The notes beneath the pieces were generated by a model. The model worked only from the letters and a program-made list of their open reading frames with translations. It had not been told where the DNA came from and ran no database searches. 45,588 bases of DNA from Nitrospirota bacterium. GTDB taxonomy: Bacteria; Nitrospirota; Thermodesulfovibrionia; Thermodesulfovibrionales; JdFR-88. Both the position numbers and the translations under genes were made by a program. Location: NCBI GenBank assembly GCA_021789215.1, contig JAJYJS010000014.1, positions 1 to 45,588 of the forward strand, read 5' to 3'. Below, piece after piece: positions 7,949 to 40,931 of this stretch (the stretch's first letter is position 1; each line of letters opens with the position of its first letter).

Positions 7949-8848
7949 TTGCTGATCAGAAGAGGTCTCATATTCCTTGTAGTCCTTTTTTCTCTGGTTT
8001 CATGTCACTCGCCTGCCGCAAAGCAGCAGGAGCGCACCTACAAGATAGGCTTTATGATATGCAACAGCAAGCAGGAGACCCTTTCCCGTTTCAGGCCGCT
8101 GTGCGCGTATCTTAGCCAGAAACTGGGCGTCAATTTCGAGCCGGTGCCCATCGATACCACGGATTTTACCAGACAGGTGGACAAGCTGGATTTCACCCAC
8201 ACCAACTCCCTGCTGTATATAATCATGCACAGAAACGACGGGGTGAACGTCCTGTGCGCGGAAAAAGCGGGGCCGCTGGGTTCCAGGTCTCAGGGAGCCA
8301 TCGTGACGCTGAAGAGCAGCGGCATAAAGACGCTTAAGGACCTGAAGGGCAAGTCGATGGTCTTTGGCCCCATGCTTGGGCCTACGGCTTACATGTCCGA
8401 GCTGGATCTGCTTCTGAAAGCCGGGATAGACCCCGACAGGGACCTCTCCTTTTACACGATACCGCCCGGCTCGTTCAAGCATGAAAAGGTCTTCTACAGT
8501 GTCCTGTTCGGGAAATATGACGCGGGCGCCTTCCCCATGCTCGACTTCGACAGGATGGTCGACGAGGGAAAGCTTGACCGCGATGACTTCCATGTCATCG
8601 CGTTGGGGACGCCAATCCCGTACTGCACCTTCGGCGTGACGCAAAGGGTTGACGACGCCTTTGCGAAAAAGGTGAAAGATGCCCTCACAAGCATCACGAA
8701 GGACGATACCGTCGCATTGGACGGCGAGATCGTTAAGGTCCTCGACAGGGCCAACATAGACGGGTATGAGGACATCAAGGACAAGGATTACGACGTGGTG
8801 CGCGACATGGCGAAGAGGACCAATATGCCGCCATACCAGAAATTCTGA
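7949..8848 (+). CDS. PhnD-type solute-binding lipoprotein
   Basis: 299 residues starting at TTG with GGAGG 7 bp upstream. The N terminus is a lipoprotein signal with lipobox LVSC followed by HSPAA. The body matches phosphate/phosphonate-type periplasmic binding proteins (PhnD-like): YKIGFMICNSKQETLSRFRPLCAYLSQKLGVNFEPVPID, then the hinge KTLKDLKGKSMVFGPMLGPTAYM, and GKYDAGAFPMLDF in lobe two. No ABC permease or ATPase lies next to it. Similar stand-alone proteins often act as ligand sensors or in uptake with a distant transporter. It overlaps the TPR gene by one base (tgATG), so they are co-translated. The ligand could be an oxyanion; that is inference from family only. Confidence 0.75.
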   Translation: MLIRRGLIFLVVLFSLVSCHSPAAKQQERTYKIGFMICNSKQETLSRFRPLCAYLSQKLGVNFEPVPIDTTDFTRQVDKLDFTHTNSLLYIIMHRNDGVNVLCAEKAGPLGSRSQGAIVTLKSSGIKTLKDLKGKSMVFGPMLGPTAYMSELDLLLKAGIDPDRDLSFYTIPPGSFKHEKVFYSVLFGKYDAGAFPMLDFDRMVDEGKLDRDDFHVIALGTPIPYCTFGVTQRVDDAFAKKVKDALTSITKDDTVALDGEIVKVLDRANIDGYEDIKDKDYDVVRDMAKRTNMPPYQKF

Positions 8849-9369
8849 TGGACTGGATAGACAGGGCCTCAATCTGGGCGATAACAGTTCTCATCATCGG
8901 CTCGGTTGCCCTTATCAGCAACCATACCGGCGCGGCGCGGCCCGGCCGCAGCCAGCAGAAGGCAAGGGCCGGTTACGCCCCGGCCAGCGGGGAAATGGAC
9001 AGCCAGGCGAAACTGGTAAAAGACCTTATCGACTCGGACAACCTCGACAAGGCGGGCTCCCTTGCCCAGGAGATGATGCGGAAATACCCTTATAATGGGG
9101 AGCCCCACATGCTGATGGGCGATGTCCTCATGAGGAAACAGGACGCGGTCAAGGCGGTGATGGAGTACAAGAAGGCGGTCGACCTCGATCCGGACTATCT
9201 CGACAAGAACACCCCGGACTTCGAGGGCAAGAAATTGCAGGTGGCCGTCAACGAGGCGCTGGCCGATATTGACAAAAAAATAAAGCAGAACCCTTCCGAT
9301 GAATCGCTGAAGAGCGACAGGAAGGCTGTCTATTACCTCCAGAGGAAGATAGCCGGAAGCTGCTCCTGA
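8848..9369 (+). CDS. Membrane-anchored TPR protein
   Basis: 173 residues. One N-terminal membrane segment (IWAITVLIIGSVALISN, about residues 9-25) is followed by a flexible linker and two tetratricopeptide-like helices pairs: AKLVKDLIDSDNLDKAGSLAQEMMRKYPYNGEPHMLMGDVL and KAVMEYKKAVDLDPDYLD. TPR units bind protein partners. The start overlaps the stop of the PhnD-like gene, so the two proteins probably work together at the outer face of the inner membrane. The specific partner is unknown. Confidence 0.6.
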   Translation: MDWIDRASIWAITVLIIGSVALISNHTGAARPGRSQQKARAGYAPASGEMDSQAKLVKDLIDSDNLDKAGSLAQEMMRKYPYNGEPHMLMGDVLMRKQDAVKAVMEYKKAVDLDPDYLDKNTPDFEGKKLQVAVNEALADIDKKIKQNPSDESLKSDRKAVYYLQRKIAGSCS

Positions 9370-9399: not shown

Positions 9400-10584
9400 A
9401 TGGGAAATTTTTTTCTGGAAAAGATAAGAAAAAACTTTTTTGCGGCCGGCCCGCCCGCTCCGGCTGAGCCGTCCTGTTATCCCAGGTATTTGTTCGTCCT
9501 GACCGGGGCCGCCATCGGCATCGGCGGCGTCCTGCTGAGCTATTTCGGAAACCCCGCAAACACCGGGTTATGCGTGTCGTGCTTCATGGAGAACATAGCC
9601 GGCTCCCTCGGGCTCCATGGGAACGTGAGGATGCAGTACCTGAGGCCTGAGATAATGGGGTTTGTCCTCGGTTCATTCCTGATTTCGGTTTATAAAAAGG
9701 AATTCAGGGCAACCGGAGGAAGCTCTCCTCTTTTAAGGTATCTGGCCGGCATATTCCTGATGATCGGATGCGCCGTGTTCATGGGTTGCCCCATAAAGAT
9801 GGTGCTGAGGCTTGCCGCCGGAGACCTGACGGCGCTGATAGGGGTTGCGGGGCTTGCCGCCGGGGTGTTTATAGGGCTGAAATTTCTTGAAGGCGGCTTC
9901 AGCCTGGGCAGGCAAATCCAGATGCCCAGGGCGAACGCCTTTCTTGCGCCCGCCGGTATGGCGCTGCTGCTGGTTGCCCTCCTGTGGAAACCGGACTTCA
10001 TTTCTCTTAGCACTAAAGGGGCGGCCGCACAGCACGCCCCGCTGCTTATTTCCCTTTTTGCGGGGCTCGTTATCGGGGCCCTGGCCCAGAGGACAGGGTT
10101 TTGCGTAACAGGAGGGATTTCCAGGCTATTCCTCTGGGGGCCGAGGGAATTCACGTCATGCCCGAAGACCACCGGCCTCGCGATGGGCATAGGCTCGTTC
10201 TTTCTGACCGCGCTCGCCGCGAGCCTTCTCACCGGGCAGTTCTCACTGGGCTGGCACGGGCAGCCCAGCTCCAATGACAGCTATCTCTGGAATTTTCTGG
10301 GGATGCTCCTGGTGGGCTTCGGCTCCGTCCTCATAAGGGGCTGTCCCTTCAGGCAGCTCGTTTCAGCCGGTCAGGGGGACACCGATGCCGCCGCTGCAGT
10401 CCTGGGCATGCTGACCGGGGCCGCGCTCGTGCAGGACTGGGGACTTGGCGGGGATGCCGCCGGTACGCCCTATGAGGGGAAGCTGGCCGTCCTTTTCGGC
10501 CTCTGCGCCCTGTTTGTCATAGGGCTTCTTTACAGGAAAAGGGGAGAGACCTTTGCGCCGGAATTCCAGGAAGGGCTCGATTAG
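9400..10584 (+). CDS. yedE: YedE/FdhT-type selenium-metabolism membrane transporter
   Basis: 394 residues, about ten membrane segments, made of two YeeE/YedE half-repeats. Characteristic segments are GNPANTGLCVSCFMENIAGSLGLH, MQYLRPEIMGFVLGSF, FMGCPIKMVLRLAAGD and RGCPFRQLVSAGQGD, with paired cysteines that in the wider YeeE/YedE family line the path for thiosulfate-like sulfur species. The first-half pattern matches the branch tied to selenium metabolism (YedE/FdhT) as I recall it. It begins 30 bp after the TPR gene. With a UGA-containing DsrE gene 5 kb downstream, selenium uptake or handling is a sensible role; transport of thiosulfate or persulfide remains possible. Symbol is given for family resemblance. 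Confidence 0.8.
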   Translation: MGNFFLEKIRKNFFAAGPPAPAEPSCYPRYLFVLTGAAIGIGGVLLSYFGNPANTGLCVSCFMENIAGSLGLHGNVRMQYLRPEIMGFVLGSFLISVYKKEFRATGGSSPLLRYLAGIFLMIGCAVFMGCPIKMVLRLAAGDLTALIGVAGLAAGVFIGLKFLEGGFSLGRQIQMPRANAFLAPAGMALLLVALLWKPDFISLSTKGAAAQHAPLLISLFAGLVIGALAQRTGFCVTGGISRLFLWGPREFTSCPKTTGLAMGIGSFFLTALAASLLTGQFSLGWHGQPSSNDSYLWNFLGMLLVGFGSVLIRGCPFRQLVSAGQGDTDAAAAVLGMLTGAALVQDWGLGGDAAGTPYEGKLAVLFGLCALFVIGLLYRKRGETFAPEFQEGLD

Positions 10585-10617
10585 ACCGCATATGGACCGA
10601 AGCTGGAGACATACCCT

Positions 10618-12504
10618 ATGATATTCAGGAAGAAGCACGCTGAACAAAATGATGTCTGCGAGATACACGGGCACGGGGAAAAGGCGTTAAACAAATCCCT
10701 GCTCTCCATTGTCCTTGTCTCTGTTGTGCTTGTAATCTGGCACGTATGGGCTTACGGGCCGGTCGACCCCGCCCTGTCGCGGCGGCCTTTCCCTGTGCTC
10801 CTCGGCAACGAGATATGGGACATAATCTTCGGCAGAAAAGGCATCCTCGCGGAGTTGAGGGACATCTTCCCGTATTACCTGTCCGGCGTGCTTCTGGCTG
10901 GCCTCATACGCACGTACAAGCTTACGGTCAAGCTTCGGAGCTCTCTCAACCGGTACGGTTTTTTCAGCGTGTTCGTGGCCTCCCTGGCGGGCATATTGAC
11001 GCCGCTGTGCGCCTGCGGCACGTTGACCACGGCGATAAGCCTGCTGTTTGCGGGGATACCCCTGGCACCGGTCATGTCCCTGCTTGTCACCTCGCCGCTG
11101 ATGAGCCCTTCGGCCTATCTGCTGACCCTTAACGACCTGGGGCCGGAATGGGCGGTCATCAGGACGGTTGCGGCATTCCTGATGGGCATTTTCGCCGGAA
11201 TGGTGACCCATCTGGTCAGGGGAAAAGGTTTTCAGACAAGCTCCATATTTATCGAGGGGGCCATCCCTCGGGGGGATTTCCATGACGAGAATTACCCCGA
11301 CAAGCGGCTCAAGTGCAATTGCAAGGAGAAGTTCGGCAACAGGGTTGCGGCCAGGACGAGCAACAAATTCCTCATATTCCTGGCAAAGTCCTCGGAGATG
11401 CTCTGGCTGGTGGGTAAATACGTTCTGGCCGGGGTCGCGATAGGCACCGTCATTGAGAGATACATGTCCTATGAATGGCTTTACAAGCTGTTCGACGAGG
11501 GCGGCAGGTTCAGCATCATATGGATTACGCTTGGTACAATCCCCATATTCCTGCACCAGATCAGCGCCTCAAGCATTCTTTATCACATAAAAAGCGGGCT
11601 GGACGGCACCCTTAGCGGCGGGGCGGGGCTTGCCTTCATGATAGGGGGGCCGGTGACGGCCATTCCGACGCTCACGATGTTCTGGACGGCATTCAAAAAG
11701 AGGGTGTTCTTCCTTTACCTGTTCGTCTGCGTCCTGGGCACAATACTGATAGCCTATTCCTTTCAATACCTCGTGTTTGTCCCCGGCGTGGACACGGACA
11801 ACCCTCTTTTAAGGGGCGTAAGCTCGGTATCGGGCGGCAACTCGCCAGTCATCAATAAAACGGGCAAGCACGTGAGGGCCGTTATGGACCCCGGCGGCAA
11901 GACCATAATTGCGCTCTATGACAATTATATCGAGGGGCAGGGCGGCGTTGTTTTCGATGCTGGCGCGGAGAGGTTCCTCGGCCCCCAGGCAGGCAGGTAC
12001 GGCAACGTGCAATATGCGGGCAACATCGCGGGATGGCTTGAGCAAAACAACGATTCGGATGTCAAAAAGGATATTTTGATATACGTGTTCGGCCCCTCCG
12101 GGGCGGATGCGTTCAGCCGCGGTGCGGTTTCGTATCTGGAGAAAAAGGGCTTTAAGGTGGAGTTGGCGGACAGGAAAGAAACCCCTGTGCTCTCCGAAGG
12201 ATTGCTCGGCAAGCACAGCCAGTTATGGATATTCTTCCCGGGGGCGCAGGGAGGGGGAGGCCGCTTCTCCCAGGCCGAGCTGGATGCGATTTCAGGGTTC
12301 TCGGACGACGGCAAGGGGATGCTGTTAGTGCCTGAGGGGCAGCAAGGGGCGGATGCCGCCAACCAGGCGGCCTCCGGGTTTGGCGTCACGTTCTCAGGGC
12401 TTGCCCGGAACCCGGAAGAGCTTACCGTGTCCACGTCTACCTATTTTTTCAGCAGGATGTCGGGGGCTGTTGGGAAGGTGCTGAAACTTGTGCATAAGGC
12501 CTGA
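10618..12504 (+). CDS. ArsP/DUF318-type permease with a C-terminal extracytoplasmic domain
   Basis: 628 residues. The first about 400 form a permease of the ArsP_1 (formerly DUF318) type with two homologous membrane bundles. The hallmark ILTPLCACGTLTTAISLLFAGIPLAPVM has Cys131-Ala-Cys133, and the second half has GGPVTAIPTLTMFWTAFKKR. A cytosolic, Cys-containing loop (RLKCNCKEKFG) links the halves. After the last membrane segment (about residue 380) comes an extra region of about 230 residues ending in a Rossmann-like part (DILIYVFGPSGADAF, SQLWIFFPGAQGGG, GKGMLLVPEG) that resembles ThuA/GATase-like domains. ArsP proteins export methylated arsenicals; other members are of unknown substrate. 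Position after YedE suggests a thiol-reactive or selenium/sulfur substrate, which is inference. Confidence 0.7.
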   Translation: MIFRKKHAEQNDVCEIHGHGEKALNKSLLSIVLVSVVLVIWHVWAYGPVDPALSRRPFPVLLGNEIWDIIFGRKGILAELRDIFPYYLSGVLLAGLIRTYKLTVKLRSSLNRYGFFSVFVASLAGILTPLCACGTLTTAISLLFAGIPLAPVMSLLVTSPLMSPSAYLLTLNDLGPEWAVIRTVAAFLMGIFAGMVTHLVRGKGFQTSSIFIEGAIPRGDFHDENYPDKRLKCNCKEKFGNRVAARTSNKFLIFLAKSSEMLWLVGKYVLAGVAIGTVIERYMSYEWLYKLFDEGGRFSIIWITLGTIPIFLHQISASSILYHIKSGLDGTLSGGAGLAFMIGGPVTAIPTLTMFWTAFKKRVFFLYLFVCVLGTILIAYSFQYLVFVPGVDTDNPLLRGVSSVSGGNSPVINKTGKHVRAVMDPGGKTIIALYDNYIEGQGGVVFDAGAERFLGPQAGRYGNVQYAGNIAGWLEQNNDSDVKKDILIYVFGPSGADAFSRGAVSYLEKKGFKVELADRKETPVLSEGLLGKHSQLWIFFPGAQGGGGRFSQAELDAISGFSDDGKGMLLVPEGQQGADAANQAASGFGVTFSGLARNPEELTVSTSTYFFSRMSGAVGKVLKLVHKA

Positions 12505-12880: not shown

Positions 12881-12908
12881 GGGTTTTTTGCCGGAGCGTG
12901 TTGGCCGT

Positions 12909-13217
12909 ATGAGGATATTCAGGAACCCCGAGGCGATGTGGAGGGAAGAGGACAAGTTCGCGGAGCAGGCATACGACGGGCTTGGCAAGGGGGAAGATGT
13001 CTCCGAAATAGGGACCTCTATAATACTTTGCGCCGGGAAGATGCATTCCTTCAATGTGCTGGGGACAGAGATATGGAAACTGTGCGACGGGAAAACGGCG
13101 GAAGAAATAGTTTCCGGACTCCGGGAAAAATTCGATGTCGGGGAGGACGTCCTCAGGGAGGATGTCGGAGATTTTTTGAAGGGCCTGAAGGAGGAAGGGC
13201 TTATTTATGAAAAATAA
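12909..13217 (+). CDS. GeoRSP-type PqqD-like peptide chaperone
   Basis: 102 residues from ATG 12909 (a TTG at 12888 with GAGGG upstream is an alternative that adds seven residues). The core MHSFNVLGTEIWKLCDGKTAEEIVSGLREKFDV followed by DVGDFLKGLKEEGLIY is the PqqD/RRE fold: it binds the leader of a precursor peptide and hands it to a radical SAM enzyme. The N-terminal FRNPEAMWREEDKFAEQAYDG is typical of the GeoRSP branch. It overlaps the radical SAM gene by 11 bp. The cassette order PqqD-like, radical SAM/SPASM, radical-SAM-like SPASM matches the GeoRSP system named for Geobacter; its natural peptide is, to my knowledge, not established. Confidence 0.8.
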   Translation: MRIFRNPEAMWREEDKFAEQAYDGLGKGEDVSEIGTSIILCAGKMHSFNVLGTEIWKLCDGKTAEEIVSGLREKFDVGEDVLREDVGDFLKGLKEEGLIYEK

Positions 13218-14223
13218 CGCTTTCATCCCGTCCGCGCCCGTGACGGTAAACTGGGCGGTCACGAACGCATGCAACTTCAGGTGCAAGCACTGCTACAGCC
13301 GGGCCGACACAAAGGAAGAGCTTGATTTCGAGGCGTTGTGCGCCATTGTGAGGAAGCTCGCCCAGGCAAAGGTCTTCTCGGTGAACTTCGGGGGCGGCGA
13401 ACCCCTTTTGAGAAAGGACCTCCCTGGCATCGCCAGGCTGGCCGCGGATTTGGGGCTTACGGTTTCGATGAACAGCAACGGGTTTCTTGTCAGCGCGGAC
13501 ATGGCCCGCAAGCTTAAGGAAGCCGGTTTCGCAAAGGTAGGCATCAGCATAGACAGCCCCAAGCCCCAGGTGCATGACCAGTTCAGGGGTGTGGCCGGCA
13601 GCCATGAAAAGGCGCTTGCGGCGTTGGCCCACCTGAAGGAGGCTGGCATAGAGACCTCCATTTCATCGGTAATATGCAAGATAAATATCGGCGATATAGA
13701 CGGCCTGGTGCAAATGGCGCTTTCAGCGGGCGTATCGAATATAAATTTTCATAATTTCAAGTGCTCCGGCCTGGGCTTTACCAATAAGGACACCCTTGAC
13801 CTGGGACCCGCGGAGTGGAAGGAATTTTATACGCGGGCGCTCGAACTGAAAAAGACGGTAAAGGGGCTGAGGATTTCCCTTGAAGATCCGATTATCGCCT
13901 CTCTGGGGCACAAGAACGGCGATTCCCTTGTGAAAGGGAGCGTTTGCGGGAAGCTCTCCCTCAATATCAAGTCAAACGGGGACATGACCCCTTGCGGTTT
14001 CATCCCCATTGTGATAGGGAACATCTGCAAGGACGACCTGCTGGAAGTTTGGGACAAATCCCCCGTGCTCGAGATGATGAGGAACAAGGTGCCGAAGGGG
14101 AAATGCCTCAGTTGCAAGACGTACTCCGAATGCCTGGGCGGGTGCACCGCCAGGACGCTTGCGCTTACGGGAGATATCAACAACCCCGACCCCCACTGCT
14201 GGGTGTCCCCATCGGGTGAATGA
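13207..14223 (+). CDS. GeoRSP-type radical SAM/SPASM peptide-modifying enzyme
   Basis: 338 residues. The radical SAM cluster motif CNFRCKHC is at residues 22-29, followed by the GGGEPLL SAM-binding segment (NFGGGEPLLRKDL). The C-terminal SPASM region has the auxiliary-cluster cysteines: KGSVCG, GDMTPCGF, and CLSCKTYSECLGGC. SPASM enzymes of this size install crosslinks or other changes on ribosomal peptides. The start overlaps the PqqD-like gene and the stop overlaps the partner SPASM gene (ATGA), so the three are strictly co-translated. Family membership is well supported; the reaction and peptide are unknown. Confidence 0.85.
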   Translation: MKNNAFIPSAPVTVNWAVTNACNFRCKHCYSRADTKEELDFEALCAIVRKLAQAKVFSVNFGGGEPLLRKDLPGIARLAADLGLTVSMNSNGFLVSADMARKLKEAGFAKVGISIDSPKPQVHDQFRGVAGSHEKALAALAHLKEAGIETSISSVICKINIGDIDGLVQMALSAGVSNINFHNFKCSGLGFTNKDTLDLGPAEWKEFYTRALELKKTVKGLRISLEDPIIASLGHKNGDSLVKGSVCGKLSLNIKSNGDMTPCGFIPIVIGNICKDDLLEVWDKSPVLEMMRNKVPKGKCLSCKTYSECLGGCTARTLALTGDINNPDPHCWVSPSGE

Positions 14224-15110
14224 ACCTCAGTGAATTAACCTCTCCCATCAGGGTCTACTGGGACCTGGCTGGCTGGGCCCCTGGGCCCGCCCTCCGCCAA
14301 AAGATATGCGAGGAGATTGCGGAGGCGAAGATACTGTTTCTTGGCCTGAGCACTTTTGATGCCGGGCCAGTCCCTTCCTGTGCGGATATTATCGGGCGGC
14401 TTAAAGACAGGAATATTGCCTTGTCGCTTACAGTCCCCCCCGGCTCGTTTCCTTCCGCGTCCGCGATGCGGGCCGCCCCAGCCGTTAAGGCGGTGCTTAT
14501 CCAGTCTTCGTCGCTCGATGATGTGCGGGCATCGGTTGAGGCGATAAAAAAGGACGGCGGCTTCGTCTCACTGTCAGGCATATCGTTTGAGGTTAAAAGA
14601 GGCAATTACCGGGACATCCCCGGACTGGTCTCCTTCTGCCTGGACAGCGGCGTTAGGTCGCTGGTCTTTCCAATCCAGAGGCTGTGCGGCGGGGAAGAGG
14701 TCTTTTACCTTGACGAAAAGGAAAGAGAGGGACTCGGCCATAAGTTACGCGGGATCGGCCGCCGCGGGCTCCAGGTTACCATACACGACCCATTTCTCTG
14801 GCTGGTCTTTTACCCCGGCACGGACTATCACGAAGGGTCCTGCCAGGCGGCAAACAGCATGCTGTATATATCTCCGGACTGCCGGGTCTACCCGTGTCCG
14901 GCCATGCCGCTGGAGCTGGGAGACCTGAAGAAGACGACTCTTATGGAGATAATCCACTCGGAGGAGAAAAAGGAGCTGCGGAAGGCCCTCCACAACCCGC
15001 CAGGGCAATGCGCTCCATGCGTCCAGGCGGGCAAATGCCACGGCGGCTGCCGCGGCAGGGCGTTCGCGCTGGCCCGCTCCTTTAACTGTATCGACCCCTC
15101 ATGCGGGTAA
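14220..15110 (+). CDS. GeoRSP-type SPASM protein lacking the radical SAM cysteines
   Basis: 296 residues, homologous to radical SAM proteins along its length (IRVYWDLAGWAP at the first strand, LVFPIQRLCGGEEV midway). The CxxxCxxC that should follow the first strand is replaced by GWAPGPALRQ, so it cannot bind the SAM-cleaving cluster. The SPASM end is intact: GSCQAAN, CRVYPCPAMPLELGD, CAPCVQAGKCHGGCRG and a terminal CIDPSCG. This is the diagnostic third member of GeoRSP cassettes. It may be an inactive partner that holds auxiliary clusters or the peptide for the active enzyme. No frameshift or damage is seen, so it is not a pseudogene. Confidence 0.8.
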   Translation: MNLSELTSPIRVYWDLAGWAPGPALRQKICEEIAEAKILFLGLSTFDAGPVPSCADIIGRLKDRNIALSLTVPPGSFPSASAMRAAPAVKAVLIQSSSLDDVRASVEAIKKDGGFVSLSGISFEVKRGNYRDIPGLVSFCLDSGVRSLVFPIQRLCGGEEVFYLDEKEREGLGHKLRGIGRRGLQVTIHDPFLWLVFYPGTDYHEGSCQAANSMLYISPDCRVYPCPAMPLELGDLKKTTLMEIIHSEEKKELRKALHNPPGQCAPCVQAGKCHGGCRGRAFALARSFNCIDPSCG

Positions 15111-15176: not shown

Positions 15177-15212
15177 TCTATACATGAATGAATAGTGGGG
15201 AGAGCGGAGCAG

Positions 15213-15554
15213 ATGGACCAGCTTTCAAAAAAGATAGAGATGCTCAAGGTGATAGCCCATCCGGTGAGGATAAAGATACTGGATGAGCTTACGAAGGGTG
15301 TGAAGTGCGTGAGCGACTTCGAGGATTTTCTGGGCATCAACCAGCCAAATGTCTCGCAGCACCTTTCGGTCCTGAGGGTGCATAACATAATCGACTATTA
15401 CGTTGACGGGCGGCTCAGGTGCTATTTTCTTGTCGACCCGATGGTGCCTGAAATAGTCGGGGCGCTCAAGAAGGAGCACCTGGAGCCCCTGCCCGCCCCT
15501 GCCTGTTGCCCCGTCACGAAAAAGGGCAAGTACCCCGGAGAGAGGAGACACTGA
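15213..15554 (+). CDS. ArsR/SmtB-family repressor, probably thiol-responsive
   Basis: 113 residues from ATG 15213, chosen because GTGGGGAG lies upstream; the GTG at 15195 has no ribosome site. The winged-helix DNA-binding fold is clear: MLKVIAHPVRIKILDEL, then recognition helix QPNVSQHLSVLR, then the wing RLRCYFLVDP. Cysteines are at 32 (KCVSDF, where metal sensors have ELCVCDL), 70, and a pair at 98-99 (PACCPV). Lacking the CVC site, it is more likely a persulfide/thiol or soft-metalloid sensor of the SqrR/BigR kind than an arsenic sensor. It stands just upstream of dsrE-like, dsrF-like, dsrH-like and SQR-like genes, which it probably controls. Confidence 0.8.
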   Translation: MDQLSKKIEMLKVIAHPVRIKILDELTKGVKCVSDFEDFLGINQPNVSQHLSVLRVHNIIDYYVDGRLRCYFLVDPMVPEIVGALKKEHLEPLPAPACCPVTKKGKYPGERRH

Positions 15555-15617: not shown

Positions 15618-15974
15618 ATGCCAAAGACGTTCACGCTGTACCTGTCGACTTCGCCCTATTCCTATGAGAACACACTTACCGCAGCGAAGATTGCCGGGAG
15701 CGCCCTTGAAAGGGGGCACACGGTGAACCTTATCGCGTCGGGCGACGGGGTGTACTGTTTTCTGAAGGGGCAGAAGGCAAAGGGGATACTGAACGCGGAG
15801 GAGAAGTTCAGGGAGCTTATTTCGAAGGGATTGAAGGTCTATCTCTGAGGCGGGTGCCTGAACTTCCGCCGTGCGGCGAAAGACGACTACATGGAGGGGG
15901 CAGAGGTGGGCTCGATGAAGGGCCTTTTCAAGACCATGAGGGAGTCGGATGTCTGGCTCAATCTTGGCGCATAG
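15618..15974 (+). CDS. DsrE-like selenoprotein (UGA read as selenocysteine)
   Basis: The frame begins at ATG 15618 (AGGAGGTGA upstream) and meets TGA at codon 77 (15846-15848). It then continues as GGCLNFRRAAKDDYMEGAEV and GSMKGLFKTMRESDVW to TAG at 15972-15974, 118 residues in all. Homologous DsrE/TusD-type sulfur-carrier proteins have CGxCLN exactly here (V-Y-x-C-G-G-C-L-N), so the UGA replaces the first, reactive cysteine, giving U-G-G-C. The post-UGA part is good protein sequence of the same family and ends 10 bp before the next gene, arguing against a real stop. A hairpin with loop GTGC lies 22 nt after the UGA, as in bacterial SECIS elements. DsrE-like selenoproteins are a recognised class. 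Likely role: persulfide or selenide relay with the DsrF/H-like partners. Standard gene callers would stop at 15848. Confidence 0.85.
15846..15881 (+). promoter_or_regulatory. Putative bacterial SECIS element
   Basis: Starting at the in-frame TGA, the stem C15867-C15870 / G15875-G15878 is extended past a C-A mismatch by two T-A pairs (15864-15865 / 15880-15881) and has the apical loop GTGC (15871-15874). The loop starts with G and is 22 nt from the UGA, meeting the usual spacing (about 16-37 nt) and G-in-loop rule for bacterial SECIS. An alternative larger stem pairs GGCGG (15849-15853) with CCGCC (15866-15870). Found by eye, not by a covariance model. Confidence 0.6.
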
Positions 15975-15984
15975 GGGGAGAACG

Positions 15985-16338
15985 ATGGAGACAGCAGGAA
16001 TGATGCTCAGGAAACCGCCTTATGGCGACATAAACGCCGCCGAGGCCGTCAGGCACGCGCTGGGGGCCGTATCGGACGACCTCAAGGTCATGCTTTTCCT
16101 TGTGGACGGCGGGGTGATGCTCGCCAAAAAAGGCCATGACGAGTCCGGCACGGGCTTTACCAACCTTGAAGGCGCGCTCAGGGATTGCATAGATATGGGC
16201 GTGGAGGTCTACGCCGAATCAGGCTCAATGAGGGAGCAGGAGCTTGATCCCTCGGAAATGGCCGAAGGCGTCAAGGTGATAGCGCCGAATGAACTGTCTG
16301 CCATGGTGCAGGAAGTTGATACATTAATGATTTTCTAA
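15985..16338 (+). CDS. DsrF/TusC-like sulfur-relay protein
   Basis: 117 residues from ATG 15985 (GGGGGAG 4 bp upstream, formed just after the stop of the DsrE-like gene); an in-frame ATG at 15949 lies inside the DsrE-like gene and is not used. The fold pattern is DsrE/F-like: MLRKPPYGDINAAEAVRHALGAV, VMLFLVDGGVMLAKKG, then DCIDMGVEVYAESGSMREQ. One cysteine (RDCIDMG) is in the region that in TusC/DsrF lies near the subunit face. It should form the DsrEFH/TusBCD-type complex with its neighbours, passing persulfide sulfur between carriers. Confidence 0.8.
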   Translation: METAGMMLRKPPYGDINAAEAVRHALGAVSDDLKVMLFLVDGGVMLAKKGHDESGTGFTNLEGALRDCIDMGVEVYAESGSMREQELDPSEMAEGVKVIAPNELSAMVQEVDTLMIF

Positions 16339-16352
16339 AGGAGAGCAAGTCC

Positions 16353-16646
16353 ATGTTATTCATCATTAAAAGCGCGCCGGATACGCCCGAGGGCAGGAGG
16401 GGCGTCTCCCTGGCAAAAGAAAGCGGAGCGGATGTCGTCCTTCTGCAAAACGGGGTCTATTTCGCAAACGCTAAAAATGCGGGGCAGGCCTTTGCCGATG
16501 AACAGAAGGTTTACGTAATCGAGGAGGAAAGCAGGCTCCGGGGGCTTCATGCGGGAAAGGGCCGGCCGGGGAATATAAAAGGGATAAGCTACGGCGAATT
16601 TGTGGGCCTGCTTGAGAACGCGGACAAGGTGCAGGGGACATTCTAG
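16353..16646 (+). CDS. DsrH/TusB-like sulfur-relay protein
   Basis: 97 residues, 14 bp after the DsrF-like gene with GGAGAG upstream. Sequence shows the TusB/DsrH layout: FIIKSAPDTPEGRRGVSLAKESGADVVLLQNGVYFAN, KVYVIEEESRLRGL, ISYGEFVGLLENADKV. DsrH normally carries one catalytic cysteine in the loop after the second strand; here no cysteine is present at all, so the protein may be only structural and the selenocysteine of the DsrE-like subunit may be the sole reactive site. The stop codon TAG coincides with the left edge of a repeat element (16643-16773). Confidence 0.75.
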   Translation: MLFIIKSAPDTPEGRRGVSLAKESGADVVLLQNGVYFANAKNAGQAFADEQKVYVIEEESRLRGLHAGKGRPGNIKGISYGEFVGLLENADKVQGTF

Positions 16647-16773: not shown

Positions 16774-16798
16774 TTAGAGGCTCTTGCTTTCTTTCAAT

Positions 16799-16837
16799 CC
16801 CCTCTCCCAAAGGGAGAGGGGCAGGGGTGAGGGAGAG
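16799..16837 (+). repeat. C/G-rich hairpin repeat, copy 3
   Basis: CCCCTCTCCC and GGGAGAGGGG form a hairpin with an AAA loop, followed by CAGGGGTGAGGGAGAG that runs straight into the ATG at 16838. The same unit at 1946-1984 also sits directly upstream of a start. The GGTGAGGGAGAG tail serves as the ribosome site here. Confidence 0.6.
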
Positions 16838-18025
16838 ATGGCGAAAATAGTTGTTATTGGGGGCTCATTCGGCGGGCTTACCGCCGCGTTCGAGTTGAAG
16901 CGGCTGCTTGGGGAAAGGGCCGGCGTGACGGTGCTGGGAGACGACGAGCGGTTTGTCTTCCTCCCCTCCCTGCCCTGGCTCATCATGGGGCACAGAAGGG
17001 CTGAAGACATAACGCTGAATGTCCCGGAGATACTCAAACCGAAGGGGATAAGCTTCATCCGGGAGGCCGCAACCGGGGTCGATCCGGAAAAATCAAAGGT
17101 GCTCACCGCAAGCGGGGAGATCCCTTACGATTACCTTGTCATATCCACCGGCCCTTACCTCGCTTTTGAGGAGATACCGGGACTCGGCCCGGAAAGGGGC
17201 CATACCAGCTGCACATTTACATTGGGCCACGCAGTCAACACGAAGATGGCATGGGAAAAAATCCTTGAAGACCCCGGCCCTGTCGTCGTGGGCTCGGCCC
17301 AGGGGGTGAGCTGTTTCGGGCCGTCATACGAGCTTGCCTACGAGATGCACAACGAGCTTAAAAGGCGGAAGCTGCGCCACAAGGTGCCGATATTCTACAT
17401 CACCTCCGAGCCCTATCTTGGGCACATGGGGGTCGGAGGGCTTGGGAACTCAAAAAGGTTTTTCGAGGACACGTTTGCGGAAAGGGAGATAAAACCCCTG
17501 GTAAGCCAGGCGATAGAGGAGGTTGCGCCGGGAGAGGTGAGGCTCAGGGGCGGCGCCAAAATCCTGTTCAAGTTCGCGATGATAGCCCCGCCCTTCAAGG
17601 GGGTGCCTGCTGTCACCCCGCTTGGAAACCCGAGGGGGTTTATCCCCGTGGACAGGAATTTCAGGCACACAAAACATCAAAACATCTTTGTCGTGGGGGT
17701 CGCGATGGCGATAGCGCCGCCGGAGCCCACGCCTGTGCCAACCGGGGTGCCCAAAACCGGCTTCATGACCGTGAAGATGGCCAGGACCGCCGCGGCAACA
17801 ATAAGCGCGGAGATAAAAGGCGAAAACATCCCCTCCGCCTGGGAGCTTTCCGTCACCTGCCTTATGGACATGGGCAACACGGCTGCACTGATGAAGGCCG
17901 TCCCCGTGCTCCCGCCCAGGCAGGAATCCATAACAAAGGAAGGCATGCGGTACAGGTACCTGAAGGCGGCATTCGAGAGATATTTCCTCTGGAAGATGAG
18001 GCACGGCCTGAGCAGCCTGCCATAA
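16838..18025 (+). CDS. Sulfide:quinone oxidoreductase-like flavoprotein
   Basis: 395 residues from ATG 16838. An FAD-binding GxGxxG-like motif (VVIGGSFGGLTAAFELKR) opens the protein; the second dinucleotide motif is degenerate (VVVGSAQGVSCFGPSYEL). Three cysteines match the classical SQR set: Cys125 (HTSCTF), Cys159 (GVSCFGP) and Cys341 (VTCLMDMG). PTGVPKTGFMTVKMA near residue 300 is the usual SQR signature. It should oxidise sulfide or a persulfide, sending electrons to quinone and forming sulfane sulfur. This gives the DsrE/F/H-like carriers upstream a sulfur donor. The C-terminal amphipathic stretch (FERYFLWKMRHGLSS) fits monotopic membrane contact. Flavocytochrome c sulfide dehydrogenase subunit is a less likely alternative. 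Confidence 0.8.
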   Translation: MAKIVVIGGSFGGLTAAFELKRLLGERAGVTVLGDDERFVFLPSLPWLIMGHRRAEDITLNVPEILKPKGISFIREAATGVDPEKSKVLTASGEIPYDYLVISTGPYLAFEEIPGLGPERGHTSCTFTLGHAVNTKMAWEKILEDPGPVVVGSAQGVSCFGPSYELAYEMHNELKRRKLRHKVPIFYITSEPYLGHMGVGGLGNSKRFFEDTFAEREIKPLVSQAIEEVAPGEVRLRGGAKILFKFAMIAPPFKGVPAVTPLGNPRGFIPVDRNFRHTKHQNIFVVGVAMAIAPPEPTPVPTGVPKTGFMTVKMARTAAATISAEIKGENIPSAWELSVTCLMDMGNTAALMKAVPVLPPRQESITKEGMRYRYLKAAFERYFLWKMRHGLSSLP

Positions 18026-18058: not shown

Positions 18059-20407
18059 ATGGGAAAGAACAAAATACGAAGGACTCTTGTGGAATTCTCC
18101 GTCAGGCGGCCAAAGCTCGTCCTGCTCCTGGTTGGGGCTGTCACGCTTCTGTTCATGACCCAGCTGCCCCGGATGAAGACGGACACCGACCCCAAAAACA
18201 TGCTGCCCGCGACATCCGGGGTGAGGGTCTGGAACGGCAAAGTGGAAAAGACCTTCGGCCTTTACGAGGACACTATAGTCCTTGGCATAACCAACGGAAA
18301 GGGCGTCCTCAATGAGGGCACGCTTGGCAGGATAAAACGGATAACCGACGGCGTCCTGACGCTTAAGGGTGTGGCGGCAAGGGATGTTTCGAGCTTCACG
18401 ACGACAGACAACGTAACGGTGGACGGGCAGACGCTCAAGGTGGGCCCGTTGATGACGGACGTCCCCAAAGACAGCGCCGGCATGGGTGCCCTCAGGCGGG
18501 ACCTCTTCGAAAACCCGCTCTTCCTGAACCGCATCATCTCCGGCGACGGCAAGGCAACCGCCATATATATCCCGCTCGAAAAGGGCGCAAACGGCAAGGA
18601 GATCGCGGACAGGATAAGGGAGATAGTCAAACGCGAGGGGGGCGGCGGGGACAGCTATTACATAGCGGGAGACCCCGTGGCCAGGGACACCTTCGGGGCC
18701 GAGATGTTCAAGCTCATGGGCGTTTTCTCCCCGATAGCGGGCATGGTGATGTTTGCCGTCGCCTTCTGGATGTTCAGGAGCTTCTTCCTCTCCTTTGCGA
18801 TAATGGTCCCCGCAATGGTCATTATCATCTGGAGCATGGGCCTCGTCATAGGGCTGGGATACCCTATCCACATAATGAGTTCGATGGGCCCCGTCTTCCT
18901 GATGGCCATAGCCACCGACAGCATACACATCTTCAACGAGTTCTACTTCAGGTACAAGGAGAAGAAAGACAGGCGTGCGGCGATACTTGAAACGATGGAC
19001 GCGGTGGCCGTCCCGCTGATTTACACCGATGTCACGACAGCCGTGGGTTTCGGCTCCCTGACGCTTGCAAATATAATCCCCGTGAGGGTCTTCGGGCTTG
19101 GCGTGGGTTTTGGCACGATTGCCCTCCTGCTTTTGAGCTTTACGCTCGTGCCGGCCATTCTCACGTTCGCCGGTGAGGAAAGGCTGGAGCGTGCAGCCCT
19201 TAAGGAGGATGCGGAGGCCGGAAGGGCCAGCGGACTTTTAAGGAGGCTTGCGGCACTTGGCGTGCACAGGCCGAAAACGGTTGCCGCAGCCGGGCTTGTC
19301 CTTTTTGTGATTGCGGCAATCGGAACATCGAAGATAATCGTGAACAACAACCTCATAGAGTGGTTCAAATACCATAGCGCAATAAGGACGGCGGACAGGG
19401 TGCTGAACAAGTCCCTGGGCGGCACTTCGCCCGGCTACATCGTTGCCATGGCAAACGATGACGATTTCATCAAGACCCCGGAGGCCATGAACTACCTGGA
19501 AGGGCTCCAGCACTACCTGGAAAGAAAGCTCCCGGTTGTCGGCAAGACGGCCTCCGTGGCCGATTACGTGAAACGGATAAACCGGGTGCTGCATAATGAC
19601 AACCCCGCGTTCGATGCAATCCCTGGCAATAAGGACACGATAGGGCAGTACCTGTTTCTGTTCGGGATGTCGGCCAAACCCGCCGACCTTGACAACATGG
19701 TGGACTACCCGTTCAGGCGGGCAAACATCTGGGTGCAGCTGAAGACATGGGACGCGCAGGCGATGAGGGACGTGATAAGGGCCGTGGGCCAATACAAAAA
19801 GGCTCATCCAATTGCGATGGAGTTCAAGCCCGCGGGCATAGCCTATTTCAACCTTGTCTGGAACGACGAGGTGTTGTGGGACATGCTGAAGGGGTTTGTC
19901 ACGGCCCTTGTAGTGGTTTTCATAATACTTGCCTTCAACTTCCGCTCGTTCAAATGGGCGCTTATCGGATATGTGCCGCTCCTTTTCACGATATTGGTTA
20001 TATACGGGGTTGTGGGCTTTACCGGGAAGGACTTCGACATGCCCATATCCGTGCTCTCGACGCTTTCGCTTGGCATGGCCGTGGACTTTGCCATTCACTT
20101 TGTGAGCCGGTTCAAAAGGCGGCTTTTTGCCTTAAAGGCCGGGGAGGACGGCGCCCCGGGGAAAGAAATGATAGCCGATTCCCTGCTCTGGACGGCGGCA
20201 AGGCCCGGCAAGGGGATAATGAGGAACGCGGTGCTTTTTGCCGCGGCGTTCTCCGTGATGCTTTTTGCCCCGCTTACGCCCTACGTCACGGTCGGGGCGT
20301 TCATTGTGGGCATGATGATGCTCAGTTCGCTCCTGACGATAATCTATCTGCCCGCGCTGATAACCCTTCTCAGCGGCTGGCTTTTTGAAGGAGGTCTTTC
20401 AGGATGA
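18059..20407 (+). CDS. MMPL-type RND exporter
   Basis: 782 residues with the two-fold RND layout: one membrane helix, a periplasmic loop, then five helices, repeated. The first loop begins DTDPKNMLPATSGVRVWNGKVEKTFG, a hallmark of the hopanoid/MMPL-like group of bacterial RND proteins. In the sixth-helix region of the first half, MGPVFLMAIATDSIHIFNEF carries the proton-relay acidic residue, repeated as LSLGMAVDFAIHFVSRF in the second half. It overlaps the LolA-like gene by 4 bp. With the following LolA-like and DUF1302-like porin genes it forms a common trio thought to move lipids or hydrophobic molecules to the outer membrane. Substrate not determined by sequence. Confidence 0.8.
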   Translation: MGKNKIRRTLVEFSVRRPKLVLLLVGAVTLLFMTQLPRMKTDTDPKNMLPATSGVRVWNGKVEKTFGLYEDTIVLGITNGKGVLNEGTLGRIKRITDGVLTLKGVAARDVSSFTTTDNVTVDGQTLKVGPLMTDVPKDSAGMGALRRDLFENPLFLNRIISGDGKATAIYIPLEKGANGKEIADRIREIVKREGGGGDSYYIAGDPVARDTFGAEMFKLMGVFSPIAGMVMFAVAFWMFRSFFLSFAIMVPAMVIIIWSMGLVIGLGYPIHIMSSMGPVFLMAIATDSIHIFNEFYFRYKEKKDRRAAILETMDAVAVPLIYTDVTTAVGFGSLTLANIIPVRVFGLGVGFGTIALLLLSFTLVPAILTFAGEERLERAALKEDAEAGRASGLLRRLAALGVHRPKTVAAAGLVLFVIAAIGTSKIIVNNNLIEWFKYHSAIRTADRVLNKSLGGTSPGYIVAMANDDDFIKTPEAMNYLEGLQHYLERKLPVVGKTASVADYVKRINRVLHNDNPAFDAIPGNKDTIGQYLFLFGMSAKPADLDNMVDYPFRRANIWVQLKTWDAQAMRDVIRAVGQYKKAHPIAMEFKPAGIAYFNLVWNDEVLWDMLKGFVTALVVVFIILAFNFRSFKWALIGYVPLLFTILVIYGVVGFTGKDFDMPISVLSTLSLGMAVDFAIHFVSRFKRRLFALKAGEDGAPGKEMIADSLLWTAARPGKGIMRNAVLFAAAFSVMLFAPLTPYVTVGAFIVGMMMLSSLLTIIYLPALITLLSGWLFEGGLSG

Positions 20408-21195
20408 GACGGTTTTTTATACTCACTGTCATGTTTTTGTTGCTGGCCGGAAACGCGTTTGCCATCGATGGCCGCGCCATAATGGAGAAATCCGAGGCGG
20501 CGTTCTATTACCCCGGCAGGGACTTCAAGGCCAGGATGGTAATGAAGCTGGTGAGCGCAGGCGGGCAGGAGAGGCTCCGGGAGCTTACCATGCTCAGGAA
20601 GAATTACGGCCACCCAGGCGGCCCCCAGAAATATTTCATCTACTTTTTCCGCCCCGCCGATGTGAAGGACATGACCTTCATGGTCTATAAATACCCCGAC
20701 AGGGACAGCGACAGGTGGCTCTATGTGCCTGCAATAAACATGGTGAGGAGGATTGCCGCCCAGGACAAGCGCTCAAGCTTTGTGGGGTCGGACTTCTCCT
20801 ACGAGGACGTCTCGGGCAGGAACGTGGGCGATGACAACCACGTGCTTTTAAGAGAGGAAAAACTGGGCGGCAGAGACTGCTACCTTGTGAAGAGCACCCC
20901 CAAAAAAACGGACGTGGAATACGGCTGGAAGCTCTCCTGGATAGACAAGGCGAGTTTCCTGCCCCTTAAGGAGGAATACCATGACAGGCGGGGGGAGATA
21001 TATAAGGTCTTTACCGCAGATGAAATAAAGACGGTAAAAGGCTTCCCTACCATAACGAAAAGGACGATGAAGAACATTCAGAGCGGGCACAGGACTGAGG
21101 TGGCCTTTGAGAAAGCCGATTACAACATAGGGGTCCCCGACAGTCTTTTTTCAGAGCGCTTCCTCAAGCAGCCCCCGAAGAGATGGATAGAATAA
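20404..21195 (+). CDS. LolA-like outer-membrane lipoprotein-sorting protein
   Basis: 263 residues with a signal peptide (MRRFFILTVMFLLLAGNAFA). The beta-barrel-like half-pipe signature of the LolA-like family PF17131 is clear: WLYVPAINMVRRIAAQDKRSSFVGSDFSYEDVSGR, and ETVKGFPTITKRTMKNIQSG-like end. These proteins bind a lipid or lipoprotein in the periplasm. The gene overlaps both neighbours (RND exporter by 4 bp, porin by 13 bp), so the three are made together. Probably the periplasmic carrier for the molecule pumped by the RND protein; that role is inferred from context. Confidence 0.8.
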   Translation: MRRFFILTVMFLLLAGNAFAIDGRAIMEKSEAAFYYPGRDFKARMVMKLVSAGGQERLRELTMLRKNYGHPGGPQKYFIYFFRPADVKDMTFMVYKYPDRDSDRWLYVPAINMVRRIAAQDKRSSFVGSDFSYEDVSGRNVGDDNHVLLREEKLGGRDCYLVKSTPKKTDVEYGWKLSWIDKASFLPLKEEYHDRRGEIYKVFTADEIKTVKGFPTITKRTMKNIQSGHRTEVAFEKADYNIGVPDSLFSERFLKQPPKRWIE

Positions 21196-24468: not shown

Positions 24469-24867
24469 ATGCATACCTTTTTCGATTTCGTGACGCACAT
24501 CAAGATAGTGGAGTACGTGATTGCCATCGGGTTTATCGCGGGCTACCTCCTCTACTGGGAGTTCCTGAAACCGAGGCCGTTCAAGAGGCTTTCCACCGCC
24601 GTCAATGAAGACCTGGCCCATCTGAAGAGGAGGGGGCCTGAGAACCTGAAGACCATCGGCAGGGCCGTGTCCATCCCGTTTATCGGACTGGCCTATGTGA
24701 TTGTCCTGCCGTTCAGCTTCCTGTATGCGCTTGGCATTGCCGCCGTGAGGGGCGTGCTGGCGCTGGCGGGCAAGGAGGCGGCATTCGGGTGGAGGCCGAC
24801 AGAGGCCTATCTTGAAGGCAAGAAAAAGAAAACCGGCAAAGGCGAAACGGATGAGGAAGGCGAATGA
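24469..24867 (+). CDS. Membrane protein, paralogue of the preceding gene
   Basis: 132 residues. An extra N-terminal membrane helix (VEYVIAIGFIAGYLLYW) with a soluble linker precedes a block that matches the upstream protein: VSIPFIGLAYVIVLPFSFLYALGIAAV, then FGWRPTEAYLEGKKKK. A ribosome site (AAAGGAGG) is just before the ATG. It lies between its paralogue and a c3-like cytochrome. I infer a structural role in the respiratory complex. Function otherwise unknown. Confidence 0.6.
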   Translation: MHTFFDFVTHIKIVEYVIAIGFIAGYLLYWEFLKPRPFKRLSTAVNEDLAHLKRRGPENLKTIGRAVSIPFIGLAYVIVLPFSFLYALGIAAVRGVLALAGKEAAFGWRPTEAYLEGKKKKTGKGETDEEGE

Positions 24868-40847: not shown

Positions 40848-40931
40848 TGCCGGTGGGGGGAATCGAACCCCCACGAGGTTGCCCTCACCGGATTTTGAGT
40901 CCGGCGCGTCTGCCAGTTCCACCACACCGGC
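40848..40931 (-). tRNA. tRNA-Leu (CAA anticodon)
   Basis: Read on the minus strand: acceptor stem GCCGGTG / CACCGGC, D arm with AACTGGCAGACGC, anticodon stem-loop CCGGA-CTCAAAA-TCCGG giving anticodon CAA, a long variable arm (GAGGGCAACCTC) typical of class II Leu/Ser tRNAs, and T arm GGGGGTTCGATTCCCCC. Discriminator A at 40848; CCA is not encoded. A T-run follows on the minus strand. The 84-nt gene sits 5 bp from the stop of the convergent kinase gene. Confidence 0.95.

Follow-up and report, generated by a model that had tools for sequence, protein, structure and literature searches.

A predicted DsrE-family selenoprotein at the head of a conserved DsrE-DsrF-DsrH gene set in Nitrospirota

Does a DsrE-like reading frame of a Nitrospirota bacterium end at an in-frame TGA, or is this TGA read as selenocysteine (Sec), and what would the longer protein do? 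The frame lies in a 45,588-nucleotide stretch of DNA (contig JAJYJS010000014.1 of assembly GCA_021789215.1, forward strand), which as a whole is called the window here. The gene and its candidate decoding signals were located in window coordinates as follows.

15618..15974, + strand: Sec-DsrE, predicted DsrE-family selenoprotein gene (118 residues; UGGC active centre; Sec as residue 77)
15846..15848, + strand: in-frame UGA, interpreted as selenocysteine (same column: TGA in 92 of 96 genomes, Cys codon in 4 of 96)
15864..15881, + strand: SECIS-like hairpin within the coding sequence (consensus 6-bp stem 15864-15869 / 15876-15881; 6-nt loop CGUGCG)

The frame began with ATG at 15618, met the TGA (15846-15848) as codon 77 and ended with TAG at 15972-15974. 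The read-through product of 118 residues contained LUGGCLNFRRAAKDD, and the Pfam model PF02635 (DsrE) covered its residues 5-114 with 61.1 bits (cut-off 22.7). A first-pass annotation had described a DsrE-like frame interrupted by TGA 15846 with family sequence resuming up to the TAG, and the frame and the Pfam match bore this out. TusC (TIGR03010) was the sole NCBIfam match at E <= 0.001, and its 19.6 bits fell below the cut-off of 94.15. In the ORF list made with translation table 11 the gene was only 76 aa long; that the active centre is lost in automatic gene calling, as was also claimed, is therefore likely.

A close homologue (E <= 1e-20) was detected in 96 of 395 genomes of the phylum, and the codon at the UGA column was TGA in 92 of them and a Cys codon (TGC or TGT) in four. 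All extracted genes (112, from 105 genomes) divided into 108 with TGA and four with Cys. The Cys of the UxxC motif was retained in 106 of the 108 TGA genes, the exceptions being L089 (Ser) and the frame-broken L093. The Cys-form homologues (L190-L193) came from four genomes of one family, carried TGC or TGT within ELCGTC and could be read through without any stop. The host genome is an incomplete draft (2.2 Mb, 50 contigs, 89% complete), which might favour a pseudogene, a nonsense mutation or a sequencing error with TGC read as TGA; conservation of the TGA in 92 of 96 genomes and 108 of 112 genes refutes this explanation, which is hardly credible. Thus the column was occupied by Sec or Cys throughout these genomes, and chance and a miscalled TGC, the latter named in the first-pass annotation as a possible refutation, were excluded by the conserved TGA column.

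The TGA genes fell into two clades. Clade M, including the window gene, had UGGC in most rows and was 57-88% identical to the window gene; clade S had UTGC in most rows and was 40-48% identical to it. Both clades were present in some genomes (G002 and G065). Among the matches listed from 149 relatives, all those of at least 41% identity carried one in-frame TGA, bar the 3′ piece of a frame-broken gene of G062, and the row of G095 had a TAG additionally at its end; the TGA-less matches listed were otherwise at most 36% identical. A further 57 loci had TGA in all cases (exactly one in 56; L176 was frame-broken), and their record titles read Nitrospirae, Nitrospiraceae, Nitrospira, Thermodesulfovibrionales and the like, plus one "uncultured bacterium". 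These loci were not taken as independent support because 52 of the 57 look like records already counted. A plasmid search gave 18 records, all below 60% identity, the best 10 of the 18 being 32-33% identical and mostly haloarchaeal. In L093 / L176 (G062) the frame break lay directly after the UGA, and the hairpin sequence was kept.

In a tree built without three partial rows (L090, L116 and L117) and the frame-broken L093, the four Cys rows fell outside the Sec rows (SH-aLRT 99). No direction of Sec/Cys change is claimed, because the outgroup branch was very long (6.4). Loss of the Sec machinery as the cause of the Cys form was unsupported, since selA was still found in three of the four Cys-form genomes. 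Alignment A1 was made without L090 and L093, A2 without L116 and L117, and A4 comprised 43 of the 57 loci; 24 later-fetched genes stand outside the codon, stem, synonymous, tree, Cys-conservation and neighbour counts.

The synonymous share of single-base codon differences was 88% before and 77% after the UGA in clade M, and 89% and 80%, respectively, in clade S (rows that were too short, L091, L111, L116, L117 and frame-broken L093 were left out of the count). These shares indicated that the sequence 3′ of the UGA behaves as protein-coding and that coding constraint persists there. If the UGA were a true stop, the real output would be the 76-residue product or a regulated mixture of truncated and full-length protein. 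Standard ORF calling does give 76 aa, and bacterial Sec decoding competes with termination. A true stop is nevertheless very improbable: the downstream codons are under in-frame purifying selection, the UxxC cysteine is kept in 106 of 108 TGA genes, and the four Cys homologues have no stop at all.

The genome also encoded selA (contig C40, 613 bits), selB (contig C32, 378 bits), selD (contig C32, 353 bits; with an in-frame TGA of its own, predicted as Sec in CAGU) and a tRNA-Sec (contig C36, 73 bits, anticodon TCA), each above its curated cut-off, so the Sec machinery that the first-pass annotation had proposed to look for was complete. A second match to RF01852, on contig C5, was marginally over the cut-off of 47 with 47.4 bits. 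In the window itself, a tRNA-Sec family match on the - strand (40849-40931) stayed below this threshold with 41 bits and was probably an ordinary long-arm tRNA.

Across the phylum, 85 of the 92 genomes carrying the Sec gene had selA, as against 90 of 303 others; for dsrA the figures were 83 of 92 and 95 of 303. All four counts are uncorrected for relatedness, so that Fisher values computed from them do not amount to independent tests. At E <= 1e-40, selA was not detected in seven of the 92 Sec genomes (G068, G111, G178, G179, G185, G219 and G367), four of which (G068, G111, G185 and G367) were at least 95% complete. In two genomes of one family, the genes L089 (G111; motif UGTS) and L079 (G068; motif UGAC) had kept the TGA although selA was not found, and they are possibly decaying or incompletely assembled.

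The first-pass annotation had also noted a hairpin with a G-starting loop 22 nt after the UGA. Its position held: the GUGC loop at 15871 is separated from the UGA by 22 nt, and the consensus loop starts 21 nt after the UGA. The 24 nt folded alone gave the expected stem (-7.9 kcal/mol, z -1.9), in which the third pair from the outside was C-A; over 60 nt from the UGA, the minimum-energy fold differed from the hairpin (z -1.5). Minimum-energy folding was therefore dropped as proof of a SECIS, and codon and covariation tests were used instead; because the 60-nt fold differs, folding the window sequence alone would not prove the hairpin, but the comparative evidence does.

Codons were counted without frame-broken L093 and, in clade S, also without L117. 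In clade M, CGC stood at codon +7 in all 43 rows, CGT at +8 in 39 of 42 Arg rows, and GCG at +10 in all 40 Ala rows; the corresponding values in clade S were CGC in 21 of 23, GGT in 23 of 23 and GCG in 20 of 20 Ala rows. The entropy of other degenerate codons was mostly 1.2-2.3 bits, though not at, for example, -23 and -1 in clade M or -1 and +9 in clade S. Among the 24 later-fetched genes, CGC was found at +7 in 24 and GCG at +10 in 23. Codons +7, +8 and +10, which would form the sides and the loop of the predicted hairpin, are nearly without synonymous variation.

The stem was aligned over 83 rows, 70 of them distinct, without L093. Its six pairs were paired in 90.7% of cells, as against 41-61% with one side slid. 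Double-change cells numbered 60 (shuffled mean 23; none of 500 shuffles as high), and a covariation score of 0.41 (0.17 shuffled) was reached by none of 500 shuffles. Two of the five covariation measures did not rise above shuffling: the number of stem pairs altered on both of their sides (4 versus 3.1 shuffled; 73 of 500 shuffles as high) and that of further pair types (12 versus 10.2 shuffled; 37 of 500 as high). Compensatory changes were seen from CGC/GCG to CGT/ACG (L098, L195 and L197) and from AGC/GCT to ACC/GGT (L094 and L108), and in L092 (when folded) and L090 (by sequence) the stem was kept through a one-base shift with different codons and a five-base loop. RNAalifold on gap-free stretches was weak for clade M (-2.3) and clearer for clade S (-9.6). 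In the four Cys homologues codon +10 was AAA or AAG, so that the 3′ side of the stem was gone, and folding of one of them (L193) did not form the hairpin.

The loop was CGUGCN in most of clade M and GGUCUU in most of clade S, with G among its first two bases, as is the rule in bacterial SECIS elements. The clade S loop GGUCU (e.g. L094, 3610-3633) presumably resembles the SECIS loop of E. coli fdhF. On this comparative support, the UGA at 15846 would be read as Sec under the direction of the hairpin 16-33 nt downstream, which would recruit SelB and Sec-tRNA.

A code change in this lineage, with UGA standing for an amino acid other than Sec, would also let the frame be read through. No support for it was found, and TGA ends several window genes with short extensions behind it (16 codons after 2982-5561 and 9 after 10618-12504). 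Together with the full Sec machinery and a hairpin that accompanies the UGA and lacks its 3′ side in the four Cys homologues, this makes a code change extremely improbable. The selenocysteine reading made by the first-pass annotation was thus supported by the machinery, the Sec/Cys column and the conserved TGA, and judging from these sequence comparisons Sec-DsrE is almost certainly a selenoprotein gene.

Sec-DsrE was surrounded by the following genes. Their counts refer to Sec loci with enough flank and to the gene strand only, with no identity limit.

15195..15554, + strand: ArsR/SmtB-family regulator (at most 2.6 kb upstream in 54 of 63 loci)
15985..16338, + strand: DsrF-like subunit, PF02635 (81 of 81 loci)
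16353..16646, + strand: DsrH/TusB-like subunit, PF04077 (77 of 79 loci)
16784..18025, + strand: sulfide:quinone oxidoreductase (SQR)-like FAD protein (53 of 65 loci, counting matches at any identity)
18059..20407, + strand: MMPL-family transporter, looser neighbour (36 of 59 loci)
20404..21195, + strand: LolA-like outer-membrane lipoprotein-sorting protein, looser neighbour (28 of 47 loci)

For dsrF, ATG 15985 was preferred to the start of the longest ORF (15949) because GGGGGAGA sits just before it. The longest ORF of the SQR-like gene starts with TTG, and ATG 16838 is the more likely start. The best PDB match of the SQR-like protein was the sulfide-quinone reductase 3hyv (327 bits), and, among 55 homologues with 50% identity or more, three of its cysteines were conserved in 54, 55 and 55; at some loci (L196 and L197) the matches were just 22-28% identical, and near 12 of the 65 loci with enough flank a match was missing. 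The ArsR-type regulator was missing near 9 of 63 such loci. Its cysteines 38, 76, 104 and 105 were shared by all 65 homologues with an identity of 55% or more. Against the BigR model it scored 49 bits, and because this is below the cut-off of 155 a role as persulfide sensor is only a guess. The best-kept cysteine was found in 58 of 80 rows of DsrF and 33 of 76 of DsrH, and Cys80 of DsrE in 85 of 86. These results showed that the DsrE(Sec)-DsrF-DsrH set is conserved, usually with the ArsR and SQR-like genes. Its three products may form a physical complex, and the ArsR protein may regulate the set.

A YedE/FdhT-type transporter 5 kb upstream had been offered in the first-pass annotation as support for Sec. 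The gene is real (9400-10584; TIGR04112, putative selenium transporter, 394 bits, cut-off 200), but it is not a conserved neighbour: a match to it was found in none of 87 loci on either strand, and, on the gene strand, in none of the 45 Sec loci whose upstream flank measured 8 kb or more. Since YedE is not conserved beside the Sec gene, the argument carries no weight and was dropped. In the window it adjoins an ArsP-type permease (together 9400-12504). YedE and YedF are dealt with in PMC5322559, and the YTD cluster in PMC12998232. Directly upstream of the Sec operon, window positions 12888-15110 held genes for a PqqD-like protein, a GeoRSP radical SAM/SPASM protein (547.7 bits) and a GeoRSP SPASM protein (300.2 bits, cut-off 300); the GeoRSP radical-SAM genes were found at this place in one of 54 Sec loci and are outside the conserved set.

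An AlphaFold2 model of Sec-DsrE, with Cys in place of Sec, had a mean pLDDT of 89.5 and a DsrE fold. The closest folds were YchN (the best Foldseek match), DsrEFH chains and other DsrE-family chains including TusD, with TM-scores by query length of 0.85 for YchN, 0.86 for 2hy5_A (DsrE) and 0.85 for 2d1p_A (TusD). PDB matches of clade S to designed PPR proteins were taken as repeat artefacts.

A Cys-type DsrH-DsrE-DsrF set was present in the same genome (L216 7142-8545, on contig C42). It is followed by what we take, from the sequence, to be a TusA-like protein, and is adjoined on the other strand by what are presumably dsrMKJOP-like genes. Sec77 and Cys80 of the window protein aligned on CEAC of the Cys-type DsrE (24% identity), Sec occupying the column of the first Cys of its CxxC; the active cysteine there is thus replaced by Sec in Sec-DsrE.

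From these data we propose that Sec-DsrE acts as the DsrE-like subunit of a DsrE-DsrF-DsrH set mostly encoded beside an SQR and an ArsR-type regulator. Sulfane sulfur, perhaps polysulfide from the SQR, would be loaded on Sec77 as a selenosulfide, in parallel to the persulfide on the Cys of an ordinary DsrE, and it is by this analogy that Sec77 is proposed as the sulfur carrier. Cys80 of UGGC could then resolve the selenosulfide, and a carrier, for instance DsrC or TusA, would take over the sulfur, so that the Dsr pathway would be either supplied or drained. The explanation as a whole, a selenoprotein that transfers sulfur by its Sec, appears reasonably probable to us.

Sec-DsrE could instead be a selenoprotein with a redox function on a DsrE fold, such as a reductase acting on disulfides, on peroxides or on compounds of selenium or metalloids, with ArsR and SQR belonging to a sulfide- or metalloid-stress response. 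SQR also works in sulfide detoxification, and a four-Cys ArsR with MMPL and LolA-like neighbours would suit stress export. In addition, UxxC is described as a common thiol-redox motif (PMC1088965). However, DsrF (81 of 81 loci) and DsrH (77 of 79) accompany Sec-DsrE, which is the make-up of a sulfur relay, and the Cys-type DsrE of the same genome, located with the TusA-like and dsrMKJOP-like genes, has a CxxC as well. A redox enzyme is a possible but rather unlikely identity, and sulfur transfer by Sec is preferred here.

The class of selenoprotein is not new, because DsrE-like UxxC selenoproteins, with a SECIS downstream, were reported as early as 2005 (PMC1088965). A DsrE-like selenoprotein was described from Desulfovibrio vulgaris in 2006 (PMC1794560), and DsrE 1 and DsrE 2 selenoproteins followed in 2008, DsrE 1 standing without a Pfam entry in the GOS table (PMC2398784); WP_014524487.1 is treated in two reviews (PMC9312934 and PMC13188914). 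The window gene shares with this family PF02635 and Sec as the first residue of UxxC. In the published descriptions of the family, on which alone the comparison is based, as far as their available parts go, a DsrF-DsrH-SQR operon does not appear and Nitrospirota are not named. Among the papers listed from open-access PMC, no title or abstract opening described Sec in DsrEFH or in a Nitrospirota DsrE. The new part of the finding is that Sec-DsrE heads a conserved DsrE-DsrF-DsrH set.

Among the nearest known systems is DsrEFH type II (PMC13293266, ISME J 2026). According to the available parts of that paper, the DsrE cysteine (active Cys67/Cys78) accepts sulfur from TusA, DsrC receives sulfur from the complex in vitro, and the type II genes are syntenic with tusA and yeeE/yedE. 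Shared with it are syntenic DsrE, DsrF and DsrH genes, occurrence mostly in dsrA genomes including Nitrospirota, and an active-site chalcogen residue in DsrE. The window set differs in having Sec for Cys. None of the 17 window genes scanned was a tusA, and the YedE of the window is not a conserved neighbour; a second set, DsrH-DsrE-DsrF of the Cys type, accompanied by a TusA-like gene, is located elsewhere in the genome. The survey in PMC13293266 used HMM annotation and, in the portion available, put DsrE proteins without Cys (0.7%) down to sequencing errors; the string "selen" is absent from its main text. If its protein sets came from ordinary gene calling, DsrE genes cut at the UGA would have been missed, and the counts of Nitrospirota DsrEFH-like sets may be too low.

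Type I DsrEFH and TusBCD (2hy5 and 2d1p) share the fold (TM-scores of 0.86 for 2hy5_A and 0.85 for 2d1p_A). They differ from the window protein in sequence (17% identity to 2hy5_A and 13% to 2d1p_A) and in having Cys where it has Sec, and the window protein is below the NCBIfam TusC cut-off. E. coli YchN (1jx7) was the best PDB match by sequence (26.5 bits, E 4e-5) as well as by Foldseek; the first Cys of its LCKTC aligned with the Sec of the window protein, at 22% identity.

Selenium would thus occupy what is probably the catalytic site of a sulfur-transfer set, in bacteria most of which have dsrA. The chances seem evenly balanced that Nitrospirota possess a selenium-dependent DsrEFH sulfur relay, fed by its own SQR, carrying sulfane sulfur on Sec beside a Cys-type DsrEFH, and overlooked because gene finders cut its DsrE at the UGA. 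If such a relay exists, the dissimilatory sulfur metabolism of these bacteria would be partly selenium-dependent. What Sec adds to persulfide chemistry could be tested directly, because the phylum itself includes natural Cys homologues, in four genomes belonging to one family.

Further Sec candidates were sought in the window among ORFs of at least 130 aa, and the three longest TGA extensions (311, 404 and 605 codons) were rejected because they enter the next ORF in frame. Read through its TGA, the ORF at 8848-9369 stays open into YedE and that at 24469-24867 stays open for 74 more codons, both probably by chance.
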